Assembly (NCBI GenBank): GCA_944391625.1
Contig: CALXUG010000002.1
Location: 102,168 to 166,167, forward strand
Direction: 5' to 3'
From: an uncultured Clostridia bacterium
GTDB taxonomy: Bacteria; Bacillota; Peptococcia; Peptococcales; Peptococcaceae
Length of the DNA: 64,000 bases
Shown here: piece after piece, positions 25,692 to 28,659 of the stretch
Layout: each line of letters opens with the position of its first letter
Position numbering within the stretch: position 1 is the stretch's first letter
Made by a program: the position numbers and the translations under genes
The notes under the pieces: model-generated
What the model was told of the DNA's origin: nothing
Database searches by the model: none
Seen by the model: only the letters and a program-made list of their open reading frames with translations

Positions 25692-26537
25692 TTAGTTTCT
25701 GTTCATTCCATACATAGTGGTAAGCAATTTCTTTTTATACAGCATTTCCGTTTGAATTACTTCTTCACTGGTTGCTGTTTTTGAAAAAACTTGAAGAATG
25801 GAGAATTGAAAATCCTGATATCTTTCTGGTGAACTAACCAGTACTTCTTTCATACCCTTATTTCCCCCGTGTTTTGACTGGACATAACTGGCCCAACGGG
25901 ATAACAAACCGCCTTCTCCATAAGCTGAACCCACATAAAGAGCCCCATTCCGTTTATCTGCAATTAAATAAACCGCCGAAACAGCAGACAACGCAGTATG
26001 CCAGTTTTCATACACAATCGGGTCTGATATGATTTCCTGTAATTCCTGATAAGATAACAAAACATTTTCATATCCAACAAATTGAACTTTCTGTTTCGCC
26101 TGTATTGCCAGCACTGCTTTCTCATTGGTAGCTTTCTGATGCCATGATACTGTTGCTTTTCCCCAGTCAATAATCAGCCTTCCTTCCAGTTCTTTCAGTA
26201 GATCTATTTCTTCTAAATCATAAAAACCGCTTTCTCCTGTAAACCATTCTGGATATAAAAAATTAGGGGGACATACATCGGGCATATCCGACACACAACC
26301 ATTTACTTTATAACAAGCGTATAATTTACAACTCGTTCCTTTATCACTGACAAATACTACCCAATAATCAAAATCCTTAGAAAAATTTAAGTTTTGCCGC
26401 TGTGTATATTCTTTTACATTATCAGCGTCAAAACAATCACGAAAACCTTTGTCATTTAATGAATGTCGAATTAATTTTGTCCTGTTCAAATCCAAACCTG
26501 CACGTTTCAAAATATCTGATAAATATAACAAACTCAT
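25692..26537 (-). CDS. GIY-YIG nuclease family protein
   Basis: The 281-aa protein has a C-terminal GIY-YIG domain (about 188-270): SAVYLIADKRNGALYVGSA is the double-strand hallmark, with the Arg of SRWASYV and a Glu (TEMLYKKKL) placed as in the catalytic centre. The N-terminal 180 residues contain an aromatic-rich domain of unknown type (DYWVVFVSDKGTSCKLYACYKV, followed by YDLEEIDLLKELEGRLIIDWG). Proteins of this layout appear as accessory or defence genes, but the target is unknown. GGAGG precedes the ATG. It sits alone between aroF and aroA. Confidence 0.75.
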   Translation of the reverse strand: MSLLYLSDILKRAGLDLNRTKLIRHSLNDKGFRDCFDADNVKEYTQRQNLNFSKDFDYWVVFVSDKGTSCKLYACYKVNGCVSDMPDVCPPNFLYPEWFTGESGFYDLEEIDLLKELEGRLIIDWGKATVSWHQKATNEKAVLAIQAKQKVQFVGYENVLLSYQELQEIISDPIVYENWHTALSAVSAVYLIADKRNGALYVGSAYGEGGLLSRWASYVQSKHGGNKGMKEVLVSSPERYQDFQFSILQVFSKTATSEEVIQTEMLYKKKLLTTMYGMNRN

Positions 26538-26623: not shown

Positions 26624-27640
26624 TTATATTGTTTTTCCCATAGCCTGCGCCATTTTTTGCAGTTCCTGCATCACTGCGTTAAATTTATGAGGCTTTAACG
26701 ACTGAGGTCCGTCAGACAAAGCATGCAGCGGATCCGGATGCACTTCTATCATCAAACCGTCAGCACCGGCAGCAATGGCCGCTCTGCTCATCGGCTCTAC
26801 CAGATTCCATTTACCGGTAGCATGACTTGGGTCTACTATAATAGGCAGATGGGTCAGATTTTTGATAATCGGTACAGCAGACAAATCCAGTGTGTTGCGG
26901 GTGAATGTTTCAAAAGTACGAACGCCCCGTTCGCACAATATGACCTGCTCATTACCGCCGGACAGCACGTATTCGGCAGCCATAATCCATTCCTCAATGG
27001 TAGCGGACAAGCCCCGTTTCAGCAAAACCGGCTTATTGATTTTGCCAACCTCCCGCAACAGATTAAAGTTCTGCATATTGCGGGCGCCAATCTGCACAAT
27101 ATCACAGTATTCGGCCACCAACGCCACACTGCGAGGGTCCATCACTTCGCTGACAATTTTTAATCCGGTTTTCTCCCTTGCCTCGGCCATGTACTGCAAA
27201 CCGACTTCTTCCAGACCGGCAAAGGAATACGGCGATGTTCTAGGTTTAAACGCGCCGCCCCGCAAAATCCGCGCGCCGGATGCTTTGACAATTTCAGCAA
27301 CTTCCAGCATTTGTTCCCGGCTTTCCACAGCACAAGGACCGGCCATCACCTGCAGTTCATTGCCGCCTATGGTCAAATCACCAATTCTGATGATGGTATC
27401 CTCAGGATGAAATTCGCGGCTGGCCAGTTTGTACGGTGTTACCACCGGCATAACCTTTTCCACCCCATCCAAAGATTCCACATTCAGATTTTGCTTTTGC
27501 TCCTGGGTTGCGCCAACCAGACCGATAATGGTTCGTTCTTCCCCCCGGGAAATATGCAGCGTTAACTGCTGTGCCTCCAAGTATTGAATCACACTCTGCA
27601 GTTTTTGTTCATCGGCTCCATTTTTTACTACAATAATCAT
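26624..27640 (-). CDS. aroF: 3-Deoxy-7-phosphoheptulonate synthase, type I-beta with regulatory N-domain
   Basis: The 338-aa protein catalyses the first step of the shikimate pathway (PEP + erythrose-4-phosphate). The first about 70 residues are a ferredoxin-like domain ([19 protein letters not shown], then [10 protein letters not shown]), as in Thermotoga-type enzymes where it gives feedback control by Tyr/Phe. The barrel has [42 protein letters not shown] and [14 protein letters not shown] is 8 bases before the ATG. The mRNA leader (27685-27815) has a short Trp/Phe peptide and a terminator, suggesting attenuation. It forms the entry point for the aro genes that follow downstream. Confidence 0.95.
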
Positions 27641-27684
27641 AAATACATACCTCCTACTATGGATCTGTATAGCAGGAAAAGGCT

Positions 27685-27711
27685 AAAAAAACACACCGGA
27701 GAAGGGTGTGT
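27685..27711 (-). terminator. Leader terminator (attenuator) upstream of aroF
   Basis: On the minus strand ACACACC-CTTCTCC-GGTGTGT is followed by a run of Ts, about 45 bases before the aroF ATG. A competing pairing exists: GTGTG just after the leader-peptide stop can pair with the CACAC of the terminator's left arm, giving an antiterminator. Confidence 0.75.
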
Positions 27712-27728
27712 ATATTTACCAATTCACA

Positions 27729-27779
27729 CTACCATACAACCGTCCTGCAAATAATTTCTGGTGATAAAAACCACTTCAT
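27729..27779 (-). CDS. Putative aroF leader peptide (16 aa, Trp/Phe-containing)
   Basis: The short ORF encodes MKWFLSPEIICRTVVW, with Trp at positions 3 and 16 and Phe at 4, directly followed by the antiterminator/terminator pair. A weak GGTGAT ribosome site lies 10 bases upstream. It lies between a consensus promoter and the attenuator hairpin, as leader peptides do. Two Trp in 16 residues is far above background, but conservation would be needed to prove translation. Confidence 0.55.
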   Translation of the reverse strand: MKWFLSPEIICRTVVW

Positions 27780-27814
27780 ACTTTTGTCTATCACCCTACC
27801 ATGCTACATCTTTA

Positions 27815-27843
27815 TTTATACTCTTTTTTGCTGCAAAAAGCAA
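27815..27843 (-). promoter_or_regulatory. Sigma-A-type promoter of aroF
   Basis: On the minus strand TTGCTT (27838-27843), a 17-bp spacer and TATAAA (27815-27820). It lies in the gap between the XRE regulator stop and aroF. Confidence 0.7.
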
Positions 27844-27877: not shown

Positions 27878-28633
27878 TTATTCATACTTTTTAGCCACTG
27901 CATACAAAGGCACAAAGATACTGCCCAAAGTCAATGCCAACGCCAACCAGTTCCAGATACGCGCAACGGGCGCCATCTGTTCTGCCAACAGATATAACAG
28001 TGGATAACTAATCAGCGCAGCCGCTGTCCAAATGCGGCAGTAGCCCACAATATAGGGCCAGTTTCCGTTATGAAACCGCACACCGGGCAAATTTAACCGA
28101 AATACGCCGTCCACATAAGCATTGACAGAATAGGCATCATAATAGGCTGGCAACTGTTCCTGAACCAGAAAATAGAAATAATAGCTGAACACGGCAAACA
28201 GTGCTTCCGGCAGTAAAACATCTGTTATCTTCATTTCGTAGCCCAAAAATAAAAGCATGCCCAATTCCAGCGCAGCCACACATACACAACCAAGCCACAT
28301 CGCCATTCGTTTTGTTTTTTGCTGCTCTCGATGCCGCTTTTCCTGCTCCGATAATTGAATGGTGGTTTTCACCAGCGCTTCCACCTGCTGTTCATCCAGC
28401 AAAGCTTCCTGTTCTTGCCGTTTGCACTGCAGCAGCTCTGTCACCGTCACATCCAACAAATCAGCCAACGGAACCAGCAACGCAATATCCGGTACGCTCA
28501 AACCCCGTTCCCATTTACTGACTGCCTTATCAGATATAAACAGCTGCTGCGCCACCTCTTTCTGGGTCAGTCCCTTTTCCTTGCGCAGCTGTGATACCAA
28601 TGCGCCAAACTGCTCCTTATCAATCGCAAACAT
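27878..28633 (-). CDS. XRE-family regulator with membrane C-terminal domain
   Basis: Residues 9-66 form a Cro/CI helix-turn-helix (FGALVSQLRKEKGLTQKEVA, then SDKAVSKWERGLSVPD). After a charged linker the C-terminal half has four to five hydrophobic segments (about 105-125, 132-153, 196-214 and 222-243). Membrane-bound XRE regulators of this sort are common in Firmicutes and usually sense envelope stress or peptides; the signal is unknown. I use the ATG at 28633, 10 bases after AAGGAG; a GTG two codons upstream is possible. A consensus promoter lies just upstream. Confidence 0.8.
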   Translation of the reverse strand: MFAIDKEQFGALVSQLRKEKGLTQKEVAQQLFISDKAVSKWERGLSVPDIALLVPLADLLDVTVTELLQCKRQEQEALLDEQQVEALVKTTIQLSEQEKRHREQQKTKRMAMWLGCVCVAALELGMLLFLGYEMKITDVLLPEALFAVFSYYFYFLVQEQLPAYYDAYSVNAYVDGVFRLNLPGVRFHNGNWPYIVGYCRIWTAAALISYPLLYLLAEQMAPVARIWNWLALALTLGSIFVPLYAVAKKYE

Positions 28634-28659
28634 TTGCACCCATCTCCTTTCCTGCCCCC

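Follow-up and report, generated by a model that had tools for sequence, protein, structure and literature searches.

The leader of aroF, which encodes a type I-beta DAHP synthase in an uncultured member of the Peptococcaceae, is probably a transcription attenuator read by a HutP-family protein and not by a translating ribosome, a reading that we hold at a probability of roughly 0.74. We propose that the protein (G000:C8), together with an aromatic end product, would bind two clusters of UAG-containing repeats, block an antiterminator and mask the aroF Shine-Dalgarno sequence. The proposal was built from sequence comparisons, namely conserved repeats, a terminator, alternative pairings, the set of downstream genes, and the co-occurrence and neighbourhood of hutP. 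The window, meaning the whole 64,000-nt stretch of DNA analysed, contains the following features of the aroF leader, all on the reverse strand:

26624-27640 (-): aroF, type I-beta DAHP synthase of 338 aa, proposed controlled gene (ORF list; NCBIfam NF006421, E 6.5e-159; TIGR01361)
27838-27843 (-): -35 hexamer TTGCTT, with a 17-nt spacer to the -10 (by reading of the sequence)
27815-27820 (-): -10 hexamer TATAAA (by reading of the sequence)
27788-27806 (-): UAG cluster 1, UAG CAUGG UAG GGUGA UAG, three UAG with period 8, at the predicted RNA 5' end
27760-27795 (-): hairpin 3' of cluster 1, GGUGAU/AUCACC, its stem varying on both sides among relatives
27729-27747 (-): UAG cluster 2, CAG GACGG UUG UAUGG UAG, repeat core and proposed HutP-family binding site (19-mer pattern match)
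27706-27729 (-): antiterminator, GUGUG 27729-27725 with CACAC 27710-27706, overlapping the final UAG of cluster 2
27685-27711 (-): intrinsic terminator ACACACC-CUUCUCC-GGUGUGU (stem 27711-27691) followed by a U-run (27690-27685)
27667-27675 (-): CUGCUAUAC, complementary over 9 bp to the cluster 2 segment GUAUGGUAG (27737-27729)
27650-27679 (-): hairpin of 11 pairs sequestering the aroF Shine-Dalgarno AGGAGG (27655-27650)
27729-27779 (-): 16-codon ORF MKWFLSPEIICRTVVW of the first-pass annotation, judged a by-product of the repeats

Parts of the leader and their conservation in the genus

The first-pass annotation had described a promoter, a 16-codon ORF, an alternative GTGTG/CACAC pairing and a T-run terminator before aroF, and all four are present. 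The promoter (TTGCTT-17-TATAAA, 27843-27815) was recognized by reading, the automatic scan reporting none at its threshold, and would place the transcription start at ~27808. The ORF lies at 27779-27729, the alternative pairing also occurs in relatives, and the terminator, whose 5' arm contains the CACAC of the antiterminator, is retained in 5/5 genus leaders. That annotation had overlooked the two UAG-repeat clusters (27806-27788 and 27747-27729) and the Shine-Dalgarno hairpin (27679-27650), in whose 5' arm CUGCUAUAC also takes part. It had moreover placed the DNA in the Negativicutes; the closest relatives that have a name, their AroF 90% identical, are MAGs of the Peptococcaceae.

We aligned the window leader with those of four same-genus relatives with orthologous aroF (G001, G004, G005 and G007). 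Three blocks were common to all five: UGUAG-N-AUGGUAGGG near the start site, AGGAYGGUUGUAUGGUAGUGUGAA at cluster 2, and the terminator CACACC...GGUGUG. The repeat unit is the 8-nt UAG-NAYGG, recurring with a period of 8; the first two UAGs of cluster 1 are retained in 5/5 leaders, and cluster 2 is nearly invariant, its middle triplet being UUG, not UAG. Compensating stems, which the first-pass annotation had suggested seeking in relatives, were found: the hairpin after cluster 1 changes on both sides across the five genus members (GGUGAU/AUCACC, GGCAAUG/CAUUGCC, GGCAGUG/CACUGUC, GGUAAU/AUUACC, GGCAGUA/UAUUGCC), and the Shine-Dalgarno hairpin forms in all five with paired changes. As a whole, the window leader folds only slightly better than its shuffles (z -1.78, 10/200 shuffles as good).

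A gene with a GIY-YIG nuclease domain (25692-26537 (-), Pfam E 4.3e-6) lies between aroF and aroA in the window and looks inserted in this species, because aroA follows within ~170 nt of aroF in two relatives (L011 and L012). On the other side, a helix-turn-helix regulator gene with a membrane-like tail by eye (27878-28639 (-)) ends ~35 nt upstream of the aroF promoter; by eye, the 100 nt upstream in genus relatives bear no likeness to it.

Repeat sites and HutP-family genes across the phylum

An 11-mer motif was sought in the 600 nt upstream of aroF in AroF loci ranked by protein similarity, independently of the motif. It preceded aroF at 21 of the 27 nearest loci from other genomes (L011-L037, of which L031 was masked and L037 had 101 nt only) and at 1/53 of the next (L038-L090). 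Two simpler scans were uninformative: used singly, the 11-mer gave 11 matches in the window's own genome vs 26 for its reversed control, and a window-wide scan with one mismatch gave 12 matches vs 10.6 expected. A 19-mer core pattern, YAGNAYGGYWGNAYGGTRG, was run against its reversed form as control. It matched the 2.97-Mb genome of the window once, at cluster 2 (reversed 0), so that the strict site there precedes aroF only. In the order it matched 12 places among 21 genomes (reversed 0), in the class 24 places in 22 of 46 genomes (reversed 1) and in the phylum 68 places in 61/398 genomes (reversed 10).

We read 86 distinct sites, and 74 of them stood before aromatic or closely related genes. 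The downstream genes were aroF-I-beta (41 sites), a TrpX-like binding protein/transporter (16 sites, 11 of which were tested and all fell below the cut-off of the TrpX model), aroH chorismate mutase (11), tyrA (2), and aroG-I-alpha, pheA, hisC and aroK (1 each); further sites preceded hutP-family genes (2), DctP (2), sodium symporters (2), a phenylacetate-CoA ligase (1) and a LarA-like racemase (1). Four sites (L129, L133, L149 and L150) had no assigned gene. Names rest on NCBIfam/Pfam for 23 proteins, the rest being assigned by BLAST or reading. No clear site was found at the TrpX genes of the genus. Cluster 1 was recognized at 37/86 sites, vs 6 when the pattern was reversed and 6 on the downstream side. 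The sites before the PaaK-like phenylacetate-CoA ligase (L141), the DctP transporters (L126 and L127) and the racemase, of the LarAH10 family (L113), hint that the breakdown or transport of aromatic amino acids is controlled as well.

Away from aroF, between a flavoprotein gene and cmk, the window's genome encodes a HutP-family protein of 137 aa (G000:C8), which matches PF09021 over profile positions 1-128 of 128 (E 3.4e-45 to 8.1e-45, 153.8 bits, cut-off 25). The family occurs in 8/8 genus genomes and in 256 of the 398 sampled phylum genomes, and it is enriched among motif genomes (57/61 vs 199/337 others, Fisher p 1.6e-8, a test that ignores relatedness); the 199 hutP-positive genomes lack the strict motif. 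Of the four motif genomes with no hutP match (G027, G046, G163 and G388), two are 80-87% complete, and the site in G046 (L149) may be a chance site.

The repeats and hutP also often lie near each other. Two sites lie directly before HutP-family genes (L142 and L197, Pfam E 5.5e-50 and 3.6e-46). By hand count over genomes with both places listed, site and hutP were ≤20 kb apart on the same contig in 19/36 motif genomes, four of the 19 within ~110 nt; the equivalent count for the TRAP gene was 1/29. Among the 30 best-scoring hutP loci, a sample picked by score and not at random, aroH stood directly 3' of hutP in 29, the exception being at a contig edge, and the 11-mer lay before hutP or between hutP and aroH in 12. 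In several loci (L202, L211, L221 and L224) the second cluster and the Shine-Dalgarno region of aroH overlap. At L181 (G343), where the repeat starts 25 nt past the hutP domain, it overlaps the start codon of aroH, which suggests purely translational control of that gene. In the window's class, hutP belongs to a flavoprotein-hutP-(aroH)-(aroF)-cmk cluster; across 30 hutP loci of the class, the gene directly after hutP was aroH in 12 and cmk in 10, and clusters were found beside hutP in 0/30.

A T-box or known riboswitch was rejected for lack of an Rfam match: at gathering score there were 0 matches in the window and none in the scanned aroF leaders of motif-bearing loci. An undescribed riboswitch has room in that result, and under such a reading the RNA itself would bind an aromatic amino acid or precursor, with the co-occurrence of hutP arising from a shared aromatic gene cluster. 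Riboswitches typically show the features seen here: conserved letters, alternative pairing and a consistent set of downstream genes. The conserved part, however, consists of a short tandem repeat whose copy number and spacing vary, with no conserved multi-helix core, and it overlaps the aroH Shine-Dalgarno in several loci and the aroH start codon at L181, as a protein footprint would. We consider a riboswitch unlikely.

Candidate readers of the repeats

The first-pass annotation had interpreted the leader as ribosome-mediated attenuation, in which a ribosome stalled at the Trp codons of a Trp/Phe leader peptide frees the antiterminator. Transcription attenuation is supported by the terminator in 5/5 leaders and the alternative pairing in relatives; the ribosome and its Trp peptide as the sensor are not supported, and we regard that reading as very unlikely. 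The order of promoter, ORF and terminator is classical, and in 5/5 genus leaders the open frame that runs into TGG-TAG extends over 21-24 codons from the preceding stop, which on sequence is the best remaining evidence for a peptide. Disruption of the ORF in close relatives had been named as what would count against it, and on this point the relatives divide: the frame to TGG-TAG is intact in all five leaders, yet the start codon, length and residues shift among the four relatives. Nor did the comparison for conserved Trp/Phe codons favour a peptide, the second Trp codon not being retained, and the region between the two clusters is the most variable part of the leader in the genus alignment. 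The sole recurrent Trp codon appears to be a by-product of the UAUGGUAG repeat, because its TGG belongs to that repeat and also reads CGG (TGG 29 and CGG 12 among the 41 aroF-type sites; 50/86 and 36/86 over all sites); the same repeats precede other genes, often with the C that gives a CGG codon. Ribosome attenuators are recognized by a conserved peptide with many codons for the regulating amino acid, and no such peptide was found in the genus leaders. We judge the leader ORF as a whole to be such a by-product.

A reader of a different kind would be TRAP (MtrB) or another ring protein, bound to the repeats in place of the HutP-family protein. TRAP is common in the phylum (200/398 genomes); it binds repeats of UAG/GAG, and its control of trp genes follows the same logic. 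Its family (PF02081) was nevertheless found in 0/8 genus genomes, with the B. subtilis control positive, is absent from 26/61 motif genomes and has no association with the motif (35/61 vs 165/337, p 0.14). TRAP sites have a repeat spacing of 2-3 nt, against 5 nt here. With no copy in the genus and no association with the motif, TRAP was rejected as the regulator, and a ring protein in this role seems highly improbable.

The HutP-family proteins linked to aromatic genes form a variant within their family. B. subtilis HutP itself matches PF09021 over its full length (E 2.4e-32). We take His73 and His77 of that protein, and also His138, to be the metal/histidine ligands. His73 and His77 are replaced by Gly in 12/12 aligned aro-linked proteins, the His138 column being ambiguous in the alignment, and second-type HutP copies from the same class have His at 73, 77 and 138 in 5/5. 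Because His73 and His77 are replaced, the substitutions suggest that the ligand of the aro-linked clade differs from histidine. Judged by the gene set, the obvious guess is an aromatic amino acid, and the TrpX-like genes favour tryptophan. A PDB search with the window's own HutP-family protein or a 10-sequence clade profile did not recover B. subtilis HutP, hhalign gave E 3.7e-4 but a probability of 36%, and an AlphaFold model of the HutP-family protein from a single sequence was of too low confidence for use (pLDDT 45).

Proposed mechanism and related systems

Pairing was tested in 41 non-redundant leaders, drawn from 66 with a usable terminator among the 86 sites, with swapped partners as control. 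The 3' flank of cluster 2 pairs better with its own terminator 5' arm than with swapped ones (z -4.1, 6/100000) and the preference is stronger still for the 28 nt that follow the terminator (z -5.2, 0/50000 permutations). Upstream control pairings gave p 0.08 and 0.19, the terminator arm had no pairing signal with the post-terminator segment, and the true antiterminator partner was the single best of 41 in one leader only. In thermodynamic folding of 40 of the 41 aroF sites, holding cluster 2 single-stranded lowered Shine-Dalgarno accessibility in 28/40 leaders and raised it in 2/40; in the window leader it fell from 0.66 to 0.11. The mean change was -0.19 for cluster 2 vs +0.02 for other 19-nt segments, and cluster 2 ranked within the most closing tenth of segments in 19/40 leaders, while in some members of the genus the Shine-Dalgarno is closed just as strongly by other segments nearby. 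The pairing and folding results together predict two effects of a protein bound at cluster 2: the terminator would be favoured, and the Shine-Dalgarno would be closed. That the repeats are DNA operators for a transcription factor near the promoter is hardly credible: cluster 1 does lie at the predicted transcription start, but cluster 2 adjoins the antiterminator ~60 nt further downstream. The 3' flank of cluster 2 also covaries with both the terminator arm and the segment beyond the terminator, and in other loci the cluster sits at the site where ribosomes bind an internal gene of an operon.

Attenuation by the HutP-family protein would work as follows. We infer that the protein binds the leader RNA directly, that its ligand is an aromatic end product, with tryptophan as the most likely candidate and phenylalanine or tyrosine as possible ones, that binding represses, and that control has a translational arm. 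When the end product is plentiful, the protein would settle on both UAG-NAYGG clusters. Occupied, cluster 2 could not join the GUGUG/CACAC antiterminator, so the terminator would form and aroF would not be transcribed; in read-through transcripts the same occupation would free CUGCUAUAC to pair with the Shine-Dalgarno region and lower translation. When the end product is scarce, the clusters would stay free, either the antiterminator or the pairing of cluster 2 with CUGCUAUAC would form, and aroF would be expressed.

HutP binds its leader RNA as a hexamer together with its ligand. To our knowledge, this textbook RNA-binding antiterminator is known only from one catabolic operon, for histidine use, in Bacillus and relatives. 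Among open-access papers, our search turned up none that connects HutP with aromatic genes. In the B. subtilis hut operon the target RNA carries UAG/NAG triplets in two clusters that precede a terminator (PMC7430163); the window likewise has two NAG-triplet clusters in the leader, though their spacing and the middle triplet of cluster 2 depart from a perfect UAG series, and its protein belongs to the same Pfam family (PF09021) over the full length. Unlike the hut system, the targets here are aromatic biosynthesis and uptake and not histidine use, the spacers are 5 nt with conserved NAYGG letters where the hut site has bare NAG triplets, and the site overlaps the antiterminator, so that binding should terminate rather than antiterminate. 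The aro-linked clade differs too in the Gly at positions 73 and 77, presumably ligand positions in HutP. We regard the leader system as a variant of HutP-type RNA control, sharing the protein family and differing in use, in the presumed ligand residues and in the probable direction of control.

In the read-through RNA of trpE, TRAP favours a Shine-Dalgarno hairpin, much as we propose for aroF. The HutP-family protein differs from TRAP in being of another family, in a genus where TRAP is absent, and its repeats have an 8-nt period (vs ~5 nt) and are few, in two clusters (vs 11). The logic is otherwise alike: TRAP, too, blocks the antiterminator, and its binding to repeats with ensuing termination is described in PMC4027176. 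Another leader before aroF with a terminator is the uORFC-13-1 motif of Acholeplasma (Brewer et al. 2021, PMC8632094); the motif described there is a coding uORF that occurs only in Acholeplasma and environmental sequences, whereas the window leader has no conserved uORF.

On balance we lean towards a wider reading, in which an uncharacterized and widespread HutP-family clade serves one phylum as a general sensor of aromatic amino acids. Having lost two presumed ligand residues, it would read UAG-NAYGG and govern DAHP synthase, chorismate mutase and Trp uptake, as well as its own gene in some species, through termination and masking of the ribosome site, in parallel to TRAP but with an unrelated protein. 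If this is true, an uncharacterized protein clade gains a function in a phylum where the family is present in 256/398 sampled genomes; its RNA code would be testable, its ligand pocket altered and its regulatory logic inverted, and the system would be an independent parallel to TRAP.

T-box leaders also attenuate in response to amino acids, and the window differs from them in having no T-box match. The one Selenomonas aroF locus scanned, from Selenomonas ruminantium, has a T-box leader (L038 2697-2939, RF00230), so the same gene is there under a quite different amino acid sensor. At L129 (G362, ~1500 (-)) UAG-repeat clusters directly follow what looks by eye like the terminator end of a T-box (AGGGTGGTACCGCGG), and stacked control is possible at this locus. 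The second HutP type, which keeps the three His, was seen in five genomes (L262-L266; G030, G024, G034, G033 and G032). In four of them its gene closely precedes one for a malonate decarboxylase alpha subunit (by Pfam in L263, by similarity in the others), and in L262 it lies beside genes read as trpB/trpA.
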